A DNA stretch of 64,000 nucleotides. It comes from Rhodospirillales bacterium (lineage in GTDB: Bacteria; Pseudomonadota; Alphaproteobacteria; ATCC43930; CGMCC-115725). The notes beneath the pieces were generated by a model. It ran no database searches, had not been told where the DNA came from, and worked only from the letters and a program-made list of their open reading frames with translations. The stretch covers positions 1-64,000 of the forward strand of contig JAQGIC010000135.1 in assembly GCA_028288725.1 (NCBI GenBank), given 5' to 3'. Within the stretch, counting starts at the first letter, position 1; each line of letters opens with the position of its first letter. The translations under genes and the position numbers were made by a program. Positions 190-6,635 of the stretch are shown piece after piece.

Positions 190-593
190 CGCGCCTGCGG
201 TTCGAAGTCCATTCGCCAGCGAAGGCAATGGCCATGTTGGGTGGACTCCGGTCTGGCCGGCTTCGGGCGTCGGTGCAAAATAGCGGACATTCGTCTCCCG
301 TTAAGGATTTTCGGACGTCTGCCGAACACTGTCGGGGGTGTGTCGATGGCAGGCATCCGAAAATCCTTAACGAAAGCGGCCGTATGAGGTCAAAGGCCGC
401 ACCTCAGACAGGGCACCCGGTCCTCCAGATCGTCAAGCCCTCTTCGCGGCCCGATCGGAAAGGGGCAGCCGGGCTGCCCGCCGAAATGACGGCCCACGCC
501 CAATTAATCGAGACATCTAAAGCGAGAGGTCGCTGCTGGACCGTTGCATCTTGTGATAGTGTTTGTCGGCGGGTAACAGCTGAGGCGGGCAAG
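190..593. other. intergenic, left flank of the islet
   Basis: No gene is supported here. The frame of the downstream nuclease gene stays open back to 186, but no ribosome-binding site or conserved protein sequence is seen before 594. The stretch holds the 17-bp inverted repeat at 299-372. Base composition falls from the GC-rich chromosomal background to a mixed composition that persists to about 3380. Confidence 0.5.
299..372. repeat. perfect 17-bp inverted repeat (hairpin or element ends)
   Basis: CGTTAAGGATTTTCGGA at 299-315 is exactly reverse-complementary to 356-372. The 40-bp interior has a further short complementarity (CTGCC near 319 against GGCAG near 348). It lies just after the metallopeptidase gene and before the nuclease pair. 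There is no T-tract typical of an intrinsic terminator. A small non-autonomous element, a regulatory cruciform or an island edge are all possible. Confidence 0.75.
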
Positions 594-1136
594 ATGTTTT
601 TCGATACCTATGGGCCCTATGATCTGGCACGAGATGGCAGGGAAATTCCGGCGAAGCAGCCGGATATGTGGGCCGAGATCCGCGCCCACTCCAAGCAATA
701 CGACTACCCAGAGAAAGGGCTGGAGAGTGCCATCGGTTGTTATGCATTCGGCTTGAAGAACGGCACAAACTACAAGCCCTGGTACATCGGGATGACGGTG
801 GCAAAGCGGGGATTCCGAGGGGAAATCCTTCAGCCACACAAGTTGGCCCACTACAACACGGTCGTCGGCAGCAAGAAAGGCACGCCAGTTATGTTCCTGT
901 TTCCGCTTTTGACCGGCAATTGGCACTTCAGCCGAGACCGTGGCGACAGCGTGCCCCTGGTCCGCTGGGTCGAGAAAATGCTGTTCGGCATCGCCTTAAC
1001 GAGGAACCCTGAGTGCCGAAATCAGCGAGATACAAAATTTCTGCGCAATGTCGAAGTCCGTGGTGTCTTCAATAGTAGGCAGCCCGGCCGTTCGAGCGAA
1101 GCAATGCAAGCTGTGCGCAGCATGCTTGGTGCCTGA
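594..1136 (+). CDS. GIY-YIG-like endonuclease family protein
   Basis: This 180-residue protein shows GIY-YIG hallmarks. G-C-Y at 48-50 stands for the first strand and W-Y-I-G-M-T at 63-68 for the YIG strand. An arginine follows at 75 (G-F-R-G-E), the probable metal-binding glutamate is E127 in R-W-V-E-K-M-L-F, and an R-N-P-E-C-R-N segment (137-143) is typical of the family C-terminus. The frame is open upstream, but 594 is the first start giving the conserved region and fits a compact cytosolic nuclease. It ends 3 nt before an HNH gene, implying an operon. No database search was possible, so the assignment rests on motif spacing; the biological role is unknown. Confidence 0.6.
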   Translation: MFFDTYGPYDLARDGREIPAKQPDMWAEIRAHSKQYDYPEKGLESAIGCYAFGLKNGTNYKPWYIGMTVAKRGFRGEILQPHKLAHYNTVVGSKKGTPVMFLFPLLTGNWHFSRDRGDSVPLVRWVEKMLFGIALTRNPECRNQRDTKFLRNVEVRGVFNSRQPGRSSEAMQAVRSMLGA

Positions 1137-1139
1137 CCA

Positions 1140-1895
1140 GTGTCCGATTTATTCAAAGCGTCGATCCGTGAGGACCTCTGGCATCGGAATGCGCCAAGAT
1201 CTCGCCCGGTTCGCCCCGGATATTACGACCAATTGCTCATGTGCTGCGCGTGCGGTCGGCTTCTTCCCCAGGATTCCTTCGATTTGGAACACCTCGTTCC
1301 GCAACAGGTGGTCAAACGGGATCCCGCTGTCGTAAAAACGAACCCTTTGACCCCTGTCAATACCCGGTCAGGAAATCTTCTGCTCTGCAAGGAGCCGCTC
1401 AGGATTAAGGGGAAGGTTTGCTATAGGAATGGCTGCAATAGCTGGAAAGGTCGTGTCTTCGACCATGCGCTCAACGATCTCGTCGGAGGCACCGGACTGA
1501 AGGCCGAACGATGCACGCAAATCCATATCATCGCGGCTTTGTCCCTGGCCTACTTGGCGATGGTCGCCGAATTTGGCTTCATCGTCACCTTGATGCCGAG
1601 CGGTCGATTGATGCGGGAGCAGTTTTTTATGCCCAGAAAGTTCCACCGGGCGCTGCCCGTTAATTGCCAGATGATCCTCGCCGGGAGAGTGCCGATCGAA
1701 TCGCCGGGCGCTCCCCTGTGGTCGAAGCCATTTTCCTTCGGCTTCGACCGGCCCGGAATCTGCTCTGTCGGAATTCGGAACATCGCCTTAGGGGTGCCGG
1801 TCTCTCGCGACCCCAGGGTGCCTTTCTCTCAGCACCTTCGGATAGTTCCCAGCCGATACAAGCTGCGACCGGATTTCCATACGGTGTTTAGGTGA
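1140..1895 (+). CDS. HNH endonuclease family protein
   Basis: The product has 251 residues and a GTG start (1140) 3 nt after the stop of the GIY-YIG-like gene, so it is probably translationally coupled. A zinc-stabilised HNH core is visible: C35-x2-C38, then D-L-E-H-L-V-P (48-54) carrying the general-base histidine, then N-L-L-L-C (79-83), C94, and G-C-N-x-x-K-G (98-104). The C-terminal 130 residues have no domain I recognise and may bind DNA or a partner. Two different nuclease folds in one operon inside a compositionally distinct islet suggest an accessory, possibly defensive, function. That role is inference. Confidence 0.65.
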   Translation: MSDLFKASIREDLWHRNAPRSRPVRPGYYDQLLMCCACGRLLPQDSFDLEHLVPQQVVKRDPAVVKTNPLTPVNTRSGNLLLCKEPLRIKGKVCYRNGCNSWKGRVFDHALNDLVGGTGLKAERCTQIHIIAALSLAYLAMVAEFGFIVTLMPSGRLMREQFFMPRKFHRALPVNCQMILAGRVPIESPGAPLWSKPFSFGFDRPGICSVGIRNIALGVPVSRDPRVPFSQHLRIVPSRYKLRPDFHTVFR

Positions 1896-2303
1896 CCATC
1901 AACTCGGCAAGATGTGATGGAATCAGAGGACTTCCTGCGCTTTTGTCGAGGAACTAGTCCGTGATCATCGCGCCATGATGGTGGCGGCGTATCGACCGGG
2001 CATGCGCACGTCCTATGGCAGGCAAGCCGATGTCTGCAATGTGGCGACACGAATTTTCGTCTAAACGTCTTTGATGGGTCGATTCCTGCCGATCGCCGTG
2101 ACATCGACGGGCGCAATCCATTGAGGGTGATATGGCTTGTCGGGTTGCGGGCAAGTCAAAGTTATAAGCGGTCACTCGCATCGTCGTCTTGGTGGCAGGC
2201 GCACGTGCCGTCTGGGCAAGGATTTCGACGTAATGCCGTTGTTCAGGTCTACTGCAACTGTCTATGGTTGAAGAGGGTTTGCTGATCGCGAGGGAATAGA
2301 ATC
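1896..2303. other. intergenic region
   Basis: I see no convincing gene. The short open frames have no ribosome-binding site and no recognisable protein features. It contains the first copy (2075-2090) of a 16-bp direct repeat whose second copy is at 2880-2895. Confidence 0.5.
2075..2090 (+). repeat. 16-bp direct repeat, copy 1
   Basis: TGGGTCGATTCCTGCC occurs here and again at 2880-2895 in the same orientation, flanking the LprI-like gene. Neighbouring bases differ, so the identity is limited to the 16 bp. Confidence 0.6.
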
Positions 2304-2786
2304 ATGCCGTGGTGGTTCACCTTTGCCCGCCCGCTCAAATGTAGAAGGGGTTGGCCGCCGCACCTCGTGCTCTGGCTGGCCGCCGTAGCATGCTCAATTT
2401 CGACCTCAGCGTTTGCCAACCGCGATTGCTCCGGATTCTCCGGAGCGGACGAGAGCGCCTGCCTAATGAAAGGCACTGCGAAAGCCGAAGCAACCATGCG
2501 CAGGAATTATGACCGCGCTATTGATGCAGCGAAGGCAATGTTGGATTCGGAATTGAAGGATCCGGCGATGGGGATTCACCCCGATTTTCGTGCGCAGGTC
2601 GCGGAGGACCAGAAGAGGTGGAAATCCTGGGCAGAGCACGAATGCGGTTCGGAAGGTGACTTTATCATGGGTACAGGAGGAACGCTGATTGAGATAGAAT
2701 GCCGGAAGAGGTTAGCGCTTGATCGAACGAGGATGTTGAATGCTTTCACGCAACAGTTTCAAAGTCTTACGCCACAAAATAAATAA
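2304..2786 (+). CDS. secreted LprI/DUF1311-family protein
   Basis: The product has 160 residues. The N-terminus has basic residues followed by a hydrophobic stretch (about 20-36) ending A-F-A-N, a likely signal peptide. The mature part has the DUF1311 (lysozyme-inhibitor LprI N-terminal) layout: D-C near 42, a second Cys near 53, a helix with R-R-N-Y-D-R-A, then A-E-D-Q-K-R-W-K-S-W...E-C, a G-G-T pair and a final C-R-K-R-L motif, giving two potential disulfides. Family members are periplasmic or envelope proteins; some inhibit lysozyme, but most are untested. It is flanked by the 16-bp direct repeats and has no operon partner. Confidence 0.7.
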   Translation: MPWWFTFARPLKCRRGWPPHLVLWLAAVACSISTSAFANRDCSGFSGADESACLMKGTAKAEATMRRNYDRAIDAAKAMLDSELKDPAMGIHPDFRAQVAEDQKRWKSWAEHECGSEGDFIMGTGGTLIEIECRKRLALDRTRMLNAFTQQFQSLTPQNK

Positions 2787-2879
2787 CTGAGACCGATCCT
2801 ATACCTGTCACAGTCATGATTTTATCACTGCTAAACGACTGATTTCGGGAAGCCTCGTGATCCGGCTGTACGCCCTACT

Positions 2880-2895
2880 TGGGTCGATTCCTGCC
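2880..2895 (+). repeat. 16-bp direct repeat, copy 2
   Basis: Second exact copy of TGGGTCGATTCCTGCC (first at 2075-2090), located 94 bp after the LprI-like gene and just beyond the 3' end of the next gene on the minus strand. Confidence 0.6.
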
Positions 2896-2907
2896 GCACA
2901 AGAGCTG

Positions 2908-3276
2908 CTACGCGAAACGCGATTCCCAAGGCATCAAATCGAAGACGGCACGCTCAAAATCAAATCCAGTCGTCGCGACGTTGGCGTTACAATACCCCTC
3001 GATCACGGAGAGCCGACCGTCTTCTAGGAAAACGATGAAGCCCATGCCGTGCTCGATTCCGAGCACATCCCCATAGGCTCCACTTAATGGAGAACTTTCG
3101 ATCAACGGCGGCGACGACGGATCGACGCGGAGCGTTGAAAAGAAACCTGCGCCGCTGTTATTGAAGGAACCGACCTGCGCCGAGGCGATTTGGAAACGGA
3201 GGGCTTCGAGCGAGCGGACATACTGCCCCGCCGTGATGTCCAAAACGGCTTTCTCGATCTTCCATAGAGGCCTCAT
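2908..3276 (-). CDS. hypothetical protein
   Basis: This 122-residue protein is not one I recognise. It has a mixed alpha/beta composition with no membrane segment, starting M-R-P-L-W-K-I-E-K-A-V-L. A glycine/acid-rich centre (S-G-A-Y-G-D-V-L-G-I-E-H-G) is followed by a strand-rich segment (G-F-I-V-F-L-E-D-G-R-L-S-V-I-E-G-Y) resembling small immunity or SUKH-like folds only in general appearance. It ends 12 nt from the 16-bp repeat copy at 2880. Its GC content matches the islet rather than the chromosome. Length and codon bias support a real gene; the function is open. Confidence 0.5.
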   Translation of the reverse strand: MRPLWKIEKAVLDITAGQYVRSLEALRFQIASAQVGSFNNSGAGFFSTLRVDPSSPPLIESSPLSGAYGDVLGIEHGMGFIVFLEDGRLSVIEGYCNANVATTGFDFERAVFDLMPWESRFA

Positions 3277-3383
3277 ATCGCCACTTTATCGAAGTTGTTG
3301 CACGTCTGCTATCAGGGCAGCGCCCATCTGGATCGAGCGACCGCCCTGGGTCGACTGCGGTCTTTGATTTACGGTCCTGCCCC

Positions 3384-3791
3384 TCACCGACCATGCCAAG
3401 GCTCCCCCTCCGGCCGGATCAGCGCCTCCGGCAAAAGGTGCCAGGCCTTATGGATCTTCCAGGCCTGGTTCATGGTCAGCTTGCGCTTGCCGCTGAGCAA
3501 TTCCGACGCGCGCGAGCGCGAGCCCAGCACATGGGCGAGGTCGGCCTGGATCAGTTTGCGGTTGCGCATGAAATGGCGGATCGCCTCCAGCGCGGTCGGT
3601 TTCAGCAGGCGCAGCTCGCGCGCCTCATAGGCCTCGACCAGATCCAGCAACAGATCCAGGCGCAGCGCCAGATAGGTGCCGGTCTTGGGCACGGCGGCCC
3701 GGTGACGCTCGATTTCGTCGACCACCTTCAGATAGGTCTGCTGGTCGCGGATCGCCCGGATGTCGCCTATGTCCTTCATCACGTCGCCCAT
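3384..3791 (-). CDS. HigA-type HTH transcriptional regulator (orphan antitoxin-like)
   Basis: The product has 135 residues. The start at 3791 is chosen because GGGAGGT lies 4 nt upstream; the frame remains open further upstream only because it runs through a repeat array. The C-terminal half carries an Xre/HigA helix-turn-helix (I-Q-A-D-L-A-H-V-L-G-S-R-S-R-A-S-E-L-L then S-G-K-R-K-L), diagnostic of COG5499-type HigA antitoxins. The N-terminal half is the helical toxin-binding or dimerisation region. HigA normally pairs with an adjacent HigB RelE-fold mRNA interferase. No such gene lies on either side, so it may act purely as a DNA-binding regulator. The 22-bp palindromic array begins 52 bp upstream of its start and is a natural candidate operator. 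Confidence 0.75.
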   Translation of the reverse strand: MGDVMKDIGDIRAIRDQQTYLKVVDEIERHRAAVPKTGTYLALRLDLLLDLVEAYEARELRLLKPTALEAIRHFMRNRKLIQADLAHVLGSRSRASELLSGKRKLTMNQAWKIHKAWHLLPEALIRPEGEPWHGR

Positions 3792-3843
3792 TTTACCTCC
3801 CGCCTCTCCGCCGCCTGCGATCCCGCCGCTCCGGTCCCTGGAT

Positions 3844-4000
3844 GGGAACGGCACGATCCCGCCCTGGGAACCGTTGCTTCCCAGCGTGGGAACGGCTTGT
3901 TCCCCAACCGGGAAGGGTTTGTTCCCTGCTTGGGAAAAAACCCGGTCCCACCCGGGGAACATCTTGTTCCCAGGACGGGAGAAGTTCCCGGACTGGGAAC
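3844..4000. repeat. 22-bp tandem array of palindromic GGGAAC...TTCCC units
   Basis: Eight units start at 3844, 3866, 3888, 3910, 3932, 3955, 3977 and 3995, so the period is 22 bp apart from one 23-bp and one 18-bp step. A typical unit is GGGAAC, six variable bases, then TTCCC or GTTCCC, then a 4-5 bp linker, so each unit is itself an inverted repeat and the array reads alike on both strands. Linkers and loops vary while the GGGAA/TTCCC arms are kept, implying selection on the arms. Units sit in phase on about two helical turns. The array occupies the upstream region of the HigA-like gene. It resembles iteron or multi-operator arrays; it is not CRISPR, because there are no separate unique spacers. 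Confidence 0.85.
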
Positions 4001-4134
4001 GAGCCGGACGGCGCCAGCGTCCATCCGTCCGGGCCCGACGCCCGATCGTCCACCGAACCGAGGCCTCATGCCTGCCGGAAAAAATCGCGTGATCCAAAGG
4101 GCTTGCGACCTCGACGCCAACCTACCACGACGCC

Positions 4135-4150
4135 TGTTCCACGTGAAACA
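4135..4150. other. parS-like chromosome partition site
   Basis: TGTTCCACGTGAAACA differs at one base from the palindromic ParB-binding consensus TGTTTCACGTGAAACA. Such sites nucleate ParB spreading and cluster near oriC in most bacteria. It is intergenic, 135 bp beyond the palindromic array. No parB gene is in the window, and the ParA-like gene at 34198-34839 is not adjacent. The match is strong for a 16-mer; binding is inferred. Confidence 0.7.
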
Positions 4151-4544
4151 AAACAAGAACAAAATTTGAGCCGGAGAAAAATTGTCCGGCAGCCTGCGAA
4201 TGGCCGCCGAGTGTCCATTGGGGATGGGGTGGGGCTAACGCCGCTTCTGGGGATCTTCGGCCAAATCGCTCGGCCCCCGATTCGGGTCGAAGCGGTCTCC
4301 GCTTGGCAGGCTGGCCCGAGCTTTGATCCCAAGCAGAATTGATGAATTACCGTTTCAAATCCCTTGCCGTTATTCCCGCGCAAGCGGGAATCAGGCGCAA
4401 ACCGAAGGTTTGTCGCCCGAGTGGCAGAGATCTGTCACTTGCCCTGGATTCCCGCCTGCGCGGGAATGACGGATGATTTAATCCGACAGCCACGGGAAGG
4501 GTTGGCTGTGGGGGCGTCAAGGGTATGGGACAAGCAGAACCCGC
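4151..4544. other. intergenic region with a REP pair
   Basis: No gene is seen. The stretch after the parS-like site is A-rich for about 25 bp and then GC-rich. It contains an inverted pair of REP-like palindromes (4368-4472) downstream of the convergently transcribed PBP1A gene. Confidence 0.5.
4368..4472. repeat. REP/BIME element, copy 1
   Basis: Two REP-like palindromes face each other: TATTCCCGCGCAAGCGGGAA near 4371-4390, and ATTCCCGCCTGCGCGGGAAT followed by GACGG ending at 4472. The outer ends read CCGTTATTCCCGC and GCGGGAATGACGG. The same core recurs at 36093-36123 and 52312-52396. Confidence 0.75.
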
Positions 4545-6635
4545 TTACCGCGGATCGTGCCCCTGGGGCACGTAGGACGGCAGCGCCACCGGCGTATTGG
4601 TCGGCGTGATCTTGGTCGCCTGCTCCAGGACCCGCATGAAGCCGGCCGTGTCCGGCTCTTCATTGACGGCGATGGGCACGCCGTCCTCGCCCGGGCCCGT
4701 CGTCAGCGGCCGGATCGGCTGGCCCTTCAAAGCCGCGCTCATGAAATCGTGCCAGGCGTGGGCGGGCAGCGAGCCGCCGGTGACCTTGACCATCGGCGAC
4801 GCGTCGTCGTTGCCGAACCAGACGCCGGCGACCAGGTCGGCGGTATAGCCCATGAACCAGGCGTCGCGGTAATCCGAGGTCGTACCGGTCTTGCCCGCGG
4901 CCGGACGGCCGATCGCGGCCGCCTTGCCGGTGCCGTGCTGGATCACGCCTTGCAGCATGCGGTCCATGTCGGCGACGACCTGCGCCTGGATGATCCGGCC
5001 CTTGGTATTCTGCTGGCGCTGGTAGAACACCTTGCCCTTGGCGTCGCGGATGGCGGCGATGCCGTAGGGCCAGACCGCATAGCCGCCGTTGGCGAGCGTC
5101 GAATAGGCCGTGGTCAGCTCGATCAGCGAGACCTCGCCGGTGCCGAGCGCCAGGCTGGCGTCCTCGTTCAGGTCGCTGGTGATGCCCATCCGGTGGGCCG
5201 TGGCGATGACGTTGCGGATGCCGACCTTCTGGCCGACCTGGGCCGCGATCGTGTTCAGCGATTCGGCGACCGCCTCGGCCATGGTCACGTCGCCCAGATA
5301 GCGATTCTCGAAATCGTGCGGCTGCCAATTGCCGATCCGGGTCGGACCGTCGTTGAAATGATCGTCGGGCCGCAGACCCTTTTCCAGCGCGGTCAGATAG
5401 ACGAACGGCTTGAACGACGAGCCGGGCTGGCGCACGGCCTGGACCGCGCGGTTGAACTGGCTCGCCTGATAGTCCCGGCCGCCGACCATGGCGCGGATGG
5501 CGCCGTCGGGCGACATGGCGATGAGCGCCGCCTGGCTCGCCGCCGCCTTGGCGCCGTCCTTGGCCAGGATCGCCTCGAGCGCGCCCTCGGCCGCCAATTG
5601 CATCTTGGGATCGAGCGTGGTCACGACCGTGATGTCGCCCGACAGGCCGAAGGTCGCCGCCTGGTCCTGGACCCAATCGGCGTAATAGCGCATGCCCGGC
5701 CGCGTGATCGGCACGGCATTGAGCACGAAGCTCTGCTTCTGGATCGTGCTGGCCTCGTCCGCACTGAGATAGCCGGCCGCGACCATGTTGGTCAGCACCT
5801 GGGCCGTGCGCGTCGCGGCCCGCGCCTGGTCGCGCGCCGGGCTGAACCGGGTCGGCGCCTTCAACAGGCCCGCGAGCAGCGCGCATTCATAGGGGGACAA
5901 TCGCCGCGCCGATTTGCCGAAATAGCGCCGCGAGGCGGCGTCGACACCCCAGGTGCCGGCACCGAAATAGACGCGGTTCAGATAGATTTCGAGCAGCTGA
6001 TCCTTGGTGAAATGGCGTTCGAGCCAGACCGCCAGCACCGCCTCCTGCACCTTGCGCAGCAGGGTCTTGTCGGGTGTCAGGAACAGGTTCTTGGCGACCT
6101 GCTGGGTGATGGTGCTGCCGCCCTGGACCATCTGGCCCGACCGGAGGTCGACGAAGATCGCGCGCGCGATGCCGAGAGGATCGATGCCGAAGTGATGGTA
6201 GAAGCGCCGATCCTCGGTCGCGATCACCGCTTCGGGCAACGCCTTCGGCAGATCGGTGAGTTTCAGCTCCTCGCCATAGAGATCGCCGTAGGTCGCGATC
6301 AGCGATTCGTCGGCGGCGCGCAGCGTGATGCTGGGGTGATGCGCGGCCTGGGCCAGTTGCGAGGTATCGGGCAGGGTCGACGCCGCCCAGGCGATCAGAA
6401 GCCCGGCGCCGATGCTGCCCCAGACGAGCCCCAGCAGCCCCAGGCGCAGGCCCACGCGCACCGCCGCCCTCCGCCAGCCGGGCGGTTGGGGCGACCTGGC
6501 CGCGGGCTTTGCTGCCCGTCGCGGCTTCGGTGCTTCGCGCTTCGGCTCTCTGCCGGACAGCGGCGGTCTGTCGTTCGGCGTCACGCGCACAGGATGGGGA
6601 CTCCGATAATCACCGAAAATTTCCTCGACCGGCAT
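4545..6635 (-). CDS. mrcA: penicillin-binding protein 1A (class A PBP)
   Basis: The 696-residue bifunctional murein synthase begins with a basic, proline-rich cytoplasmic tail and a single membrane anchor (about 56-80). The GT51 glycosyltransferase follows, with the catalytic-Glu segment A-T-E-D-R-R-F-Y-H-H-F-G near 140 and G-G-S-T-I-T-Q-Q-V-A-K-N. The transpeptidase has the S-x-x-K nucleophile in P-G-S-S-F-K-P-F near 405, S-L-N, and K-T-G-T in A-G-K-T-G-T-T-S-D near 590. It polymerises and crosslinks peptidoglycan in the periplasm. At about 700 residues it is shorter than E. coli PBP1A and lacks the OB-like insertion, as is common in alphaproteobacteria. A long open frame on the opposite strand is a high-GC shadow. 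Confidence 0.95.
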   Translation of the reverse strand: MPVEEIFGDYRSPHPVRVTPNDRPPLSGREPKREAPKPRRAAKPAARSPQPPGWRRAAVRVGLRLGLLGLVWGSIGAGLLIAWAASTLPDTSQLAQAAHHPSITLRAADESLIATYGDLYGEELKLTDLPKALPEAVIATEDRRFYHHFGIDPLGIARAIFVDLRSGQMVQGGSTITQQVAKNLFLTPDKTLLRKVQEAVLAVWLERHFTKDQLLEIYLNRVYFGAGTWGVDAASRRYFGKSARRLSPYECALLAGLLKAPTRFSPARDQARAATRTAQVLTNMVAAGYLSADEASTIQKQSFVLNAVPITRPGMRYYADWVQDQAATFGLSGDITVVTTLDPKMQLAAEGALEAILAKDGAKAAASQAALIAMSPDGAIRAMVGGRDYQASQFNRAVQAVRQPGSSFKPFVYLTALEKGLRPDDHFNDGPTRIGNWQPHDFENRYLGDVTMAEAVAESLNTIAAQVGQKVGIRNVIATAHRMGITSDLNEDASLALGTGEVSLIELTTAYSTLANGGYAVWPYGIAAIRDAKGKVFYQRQQNTKGRIIQAQVVADMDRMLQGVIQHGTGKAAAIGRPAAGKTGTTSDYRDAWFMGYTADLVAGVWFGNDDASPMVKVTGGSLPAHAWHDFMSAALKGQPIRPLTTGPGEDGVPIAVNEEPDTAGFMRVLEQATKITPTNTPVALPSYVPQGHDPR

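Follow-up and report, generated by a model that had tools for sequence, protein, structure and literature searches.

Eight tandem palindromes upstream of an orphan HigA-type gene are very probably operators of an antitoxin-like repressor

The window (the whole stretch of 64,000 nucleotides that was analysed) carries an orphan HigA-type gene on the minus strand and, upstream of its start codon, a tandem array of palindromic units (Table 1), which was delineated by motif search and by reading the letters directly. Eight units with a 22-bp period had been predicted to start at 3844, 52 bp from the gene. All eight cores were found, but the array begins about 10 bp earlier (3833) with 43 bp between its first core and the HigA ATG. 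Each of the eight units has the core TCCC-N5-GGGA with a spacer of always 5 bp; the unit consensus is GTTCCC-N5-GGGAAC, and the linkers between units vary. The successive spacings are 22, 22, 22, 22, 23, 22, and 18 bp, and the predicted period of 22 bp (2.1 helical turns) thus holds for all but the last unit, which is off-phase with a step of 1.7 turns. The suggested placement of the units on one face of the helix is plausible at such a period. The unit had also been described as GGGAAC...GTTCCC arms around a variable loop. The arms are indeed conserved, but the register is another one: the invariant element is TCCC-N5-GGGA, and the supposed unit with its loop is the linker between neighboring units and intact at few places only.

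Table 1. Features of the HigA-type locus and the upstream array (positions in the window).
Feature	Position	Strand	Core start	Sequence	Basis and remarks
Orphan HigA-type antitoxin/repressor gene	3384..3791	-			135 aa; recognition helix GSRSRASELL; homology, PDB match, predicted fold
Shine-Dalgarno sequence	3796..3801	-		GGGAGG	Read directly; before ATG at 3789-3791
Operator unit 1 (putative)	3833..3849	.	3835	GGTCCCTGGATGGGAAC	Motif search and column conservation
Operator unit 2 (putative)	3855..3871	.	3857	GATCCCGCCCTGGGAAC	Motif search and column conservation
Operator unit 3 (putative)	3877..3893	.	3879	CTTCCCAGCGTGGGAAC	Motif search and column conservation
Operator unit 4 (putative)	3899..3915	.	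3901	GTTCCCCAACCGGGAAG	Motif search and column conservation
Operator unit 5 (putative)	3921..3937	.	3923	GTTCCCTGCTTGGGAAA	Motif search and column conservation
Operator unit 6 (putative)	3944..3960	.	3946	GGTCCCACCCGGGGAAC	23 bp after unit 5
Operator unit 7 (putative)	3966..3982	.	3968	GTTCCCAGGACGGGAGA	Motif search and column conservation
Operator unit 8 (putative)	3984..4000	.	3986	GTTCCCGGACTGGGAAC	Half-site complementarity 6/6; 18 bp after unit 7

Judged by sequence and predicted fold, the gene product is an E. coli-type HigA antitoxin. Its homologs share 33-45% identity with it and are mostly the second gene of a HigBA pair; searches identified them in 49 alphaproteobacterial species out of 385 and, at the level of the phylum, in 76 of 398 species (best identity 45%). 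The homologs are usually preceded by HigB, and those on plasmids are mostly annotated as HigA family antitoxin beside HigB. The alignment with HigBA-linked homologs covers residues ~8-128, which include the helical N-terminal part as well as the HTH. A sequence search of the PDB matched E. coli and S. flexneri HigA (residues 60-123, E-value 2e-4), and for the predicted fold the best Foldseek hits were E. coli HigA (6jq4, 6kml, 6kmq) and S. flexneri HigA with E-values of 1e-4 to 2e-3 and moderate TM scores of 0.42-0.46. Pfam and NCBIfam gave only weak HTH/HigA matches that missed both curated cut-offs (HTH_3, 21.3 bits vs. a cut-off of 23; TIGR02607, which we take to model another HigA type, 15.1 vs. 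47.7). The protein is divergent, with the fewest conserved C-terminal positions among 64 homologs, and the putative DNA-reading residues G90, S91, R92, R94, E97, and R103 are retained. No close viral homologs were found.

The absence of a toxin partner, claimed in the original prediction, was confirmed: six-frame searches of positions 2400-4600 revealed neither a HigB open reading frame nor a remnant of one, which rules out a decayed toxin gene there, and no match to PF09907 (HigB_toxin) was present anywhere in the genome. The downstream open reading frame at 2908-3276 was considered as a replacement partner and rejected; it belongs to no family, has no plasmid match, and in 384 other genomes has only two relatives, both distant. 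The same flanking genes enclose other genes in the sister species of the same genus, which has neither the HigA gene nor the array; this makes an accessory insertion probable and rules out an island common to both species. The variable region spans positions 190-4500, from the end of a metallohydrolase gene to a penicillin-binding protein gene, and its content is wholly different in the sister species.

The significance of the motif was assessed against shuffled sequence and by pattern searches of the window and the genome. TCCC-N5-GGGA occurs eight times in the region, compared with a mean of 0.04 over 5000 dinucleotide shuffles, none of which had more than 2, and every one of the eight occurrences in the 64-kb window falls inside the array. 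Genome-wide there are 46 occurrences vs. 55 of a reversed control pattern, and the motif is therefore at chance level outside the array. The search of the genome for the same unit that had been proposed accordingly returned no second array; the tandem array is unique in the genome, and its locus holds the genome's only such HigA gene. Tandem arrays of at least three such units were absent from the 384 other species among the 385 alphaproteobacterial species searched, and no relatives more than 46% identical to the HigA protein were found for a comparison of unit numbers. Within the array the core letters are invariant (64 of 64), while the spacer and linker columns agree with the consensus at 52%. 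Because the half-sites are invariant beside drifting spacers, minisatellite drift, the simple explanation that the original prediction had set against its own reading, is excluded. The wider possibility that the array lacks a function, being either a minisatellite or a dispersed repeat between genes like those of Prevotella or cyanobacteria, draws on the many 22-bp TTCCC-N5-GGGAA arrays in Prevotella chromosomes; with a single array here, the motif otherwise at chance level, and unvarying half-sites, its probability is practically nil, and we ruled out the dispersed-repeat reading.

Among the matches listed, most of which are from Prevotella, many Prevotella contigs carry such arrays, with three to six units that are mostly intergenic and several per genome; one Prevotella MAG has at least five such loci among the matches listed. 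On a plasmid of Picosynechococcus PCC 7003 (positions 240-840), an orphan HigA-like gene lies downstream of ~110 bp tandem repeats with CCCC-N5-GGGG palindromes, and a related plasmid of PCC 7002 keeps higB at the place of these repeats. This plasmid was set aside as a parallel case, its units being part of ~110 bp direct repeats that resemble dispersed cyanobacterial repeats.

If the units are operators of the HigA protein, the same palindrome is expected in the higBA promoters of its relatives, and the comparison with relatives rests on this reasoning. A weight matrix was built from the units of the window's array only and applied to whole loci of relatives, where the region upstream of higA was defined as higB plus its promoter. 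The highest-scoring site anywhere in the locus fell in this region for 29 of the 39 relatives (expected, 6.8; p = 9e-15) and, in a second, later-drawn set, for 15 of 28 loci (expected, 4.9; p = 2e-5). CCC-N5-GGG was present in 42 of 65 higBA promoter regions vs. 7.4% of 489 control windows; other spacer lengths (0-4 and 6-12) occurred in 3-12% of promoter regions, none comparably enriched. Two plasmid HigBA operons that were read afterwards contain GTTCCC-N5-GGGAAC as well. In 29 of 46 relatives the left half-site is a TTGNTC-like -35 hexamer, usually followed 17 bp on by a TAnnnT-like hexamer; the operator of these relatives thus overlaps the promoter, as expected of a repressor site. The proposed search of relatives for the same unit therefore recovered the palindrome, its 5-bp spacer, and its half-sites in higBA promoters. 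The array itself combines the CC-N7-GG palindrome, the CCC-N5-GGG core, and half-sites fitting the class of the recognition helix, by which HigA operators are recognized.

The half-sites also vary with the recognition helix of the cognate HigA, whose classes (RASE/RASD vs. RV) were assigned by hand. TTCC half-sites accompany 18 of 23 HigA proteins of the RASE/RASD class and 2 of 22 of the RV class (Fisher's exact test, 3e-6), with other triplets in 20 of 22 RV-type cases. The helix of the window's HigA, GSRSRASE, belongs to the RASE class, and the half-sites of the array are TTCC. The pairs observed upstream of higB were RASE with TTCC, RVYE with GTCC, and RVAE with CTCC, ATCC, or GCCC. This points to a simple recognition code for the HigA family, in which RASE would specify TTCC and RV-type helices other triplets, all on the CCC-N5-GGG frame, and which could serve to predict where higBA promoters lie and which antitoxins might cross-talk.

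The motif on its own is undiagnostic, since Prevotella and phage initiator genes carry similar arrays that are not associated with HigA; no HigA relative was found near the viral and Prevotella array loci that were fetched. The case for HigA sites is made by the comparison with relatives, by half-sites of full length, and by the HigA gene next to the array. The viral arrays bear on another reading that had been offered, in which the array is a remnant replication origin with iterons for a phage or plasmid initiator and adjoins HigA by coincidence. Tandem TCCC-N5-GGGA triplets at 20-24 bp were present in 60 viral contigs, and all seven arrays tested lay within initiator genes of the lambda O-like or DnaD-like type, for which reason they are probably origin iterons. 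The iterons of lambda-type phage origins are tandem near-palindromic units at about two helical turns, and they resemble the array in this and in their TCCC...GGGA arms but differ in lying inside the initiator gene. By contrast, two open reading frames tested that run across the array gave no PHROG match, an initiator gene was not noticed in the vicinity, the adjoining gene is HigA-like, and the full six-base half-sites together with the helix class fit HigA operators. A remnant origin is thus not supported, and we consider it quite improbable.

Since the higBA promoters of relatives share the palindrome, the spacer, the half-sites, and the match to the helix class, the array units are very probably HigA operators. 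The architecture CCC-N5-GGG is common to the array and to alphaproteobacterial and other proteobacterial higBA members, and operons of E. coli-type HigA (5ifg, 6jq4, 6kml; S. flexneri 5ycl) resemble the locus in the sequence and fold of the antitoxin and in having a palindromic operator. They differ from it in layout. The operons of relatives contain the toxin and a single operator, or a pair of operators spaced by 25-27 bp, adjoining the start of higB, whereas the locus studied here is devoid of the toxin and has eight units at 22 bp that adjoin the HigA start codon. The array is therefore unusual for a HigA promoter, as had been remarked from the outset.

The suggestion of an operator array serving as an autoregulatory platform is strongly supported by this comparison. 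The likely reading is that the HigA-type repressor has eight operators in tandem next to its gene, that it controls this gene, and that the toxin was lost and the operator amplified. Each unit would be the site of one dimer, with its two half-sites read by the helix GSRSRASE, and a stack of dimers spaced by roughly two turns of the helix would repress transcription of the HigA gene, probably cooperatively, such that the repressor would hold itself at a low and sharply set level. The locus would then descend from a toxin-antitoxin operon of the higBA type that had one or two operators, as is usual. This operon would have lost its toxin gene, and tandem duplication would have multiplied the operator; we infer the order of these two events, and selection on the half-sites would have kept the array. 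HigA binding, repression, cooperativity, and the position of the promoter are likewise what we infer from the letters of the locus and its relatives.

Multi-operator autoregulation has precedents among antitoxins. YefM-YoeB and Kis-Kid have paired palindromes (reviewed in PMC4803016) and resemble the array, for which binding is predicted, in having several palindromic antitoxin-bound sites upstream of their own gene; they have two sites, however, compared with eight sites and no toxin as corepressor here. In the HigBA system of A. baumannii the toxin acts as corepressor with HigA (PMC5906591). The locus may represent an antitoxin that outlived its toxin and gained a regulatory platform far larger than in any relative examined, and it makes testable the idea that operator amplification can substitute for the toxin as corepressor.

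The units could also be HigA operators that serve mainly as a sink titrating HigA, or that act on a target other than its own promoter. Eight sites are far beyond the need of steric repression, a search for sigma-70-like promoters near the array found none on the HigA strand, and several units have -35-like TTG flanks on the plus strand, directed away from HigA. The last two observations, like the divergence of the HigA protein, also speak against the preferred reading of self-repression. We nevertheless regard this as unlikely, given that the array lies directly upstream of the HigA start codon, like the operators of relatives upstream of higB, and that the genome has no other above-chance sites to control. 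A further suggestion was that of a structured 5' leader in which each unit forms an RNA hairpin. The minus-strand leader folds at -125.6 kcal/mol (z-score -5.4), but any array of inverted repeats folds well by construction, and the minimum-energy fold pairs distant units instead of forming one hairpin per unit. The arms never co-vary (always TCCC/GGGA in the eight units), and the operators of relatives are placed in the promoter. The leader reading thus failed to find support and appears extremely improbable, while autoregulatory HigA operators remain the preferred explanation.

A perfect parS-like site (TGTTCCACGTGAAACA) is situated at positions 4135-4150, 135 bp from the array. It is one of three in the genome, and the other two are on another contig, in a region aligning with the parA-parB-mnmG locus of the sister species. 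In a relative of the same family the gene of the flanking penicillin-binding protein lies ~50 kb from the parS cluster, and the window may therefore lie in the origin region. Any link of the parS-like site with the array is speculation. Equally speculative, and of very low probability, is the idea that the toxin-free HigA and its eight-site array form a nucleoprotein structure that does more than autoregulate, e.g., by organizing or marking the origin region. Positions 4360-4475 of the window contain a REP-like pair of CCCGC...GCGGG palindromes, an element with dozens of copies in the genome of the sister species.
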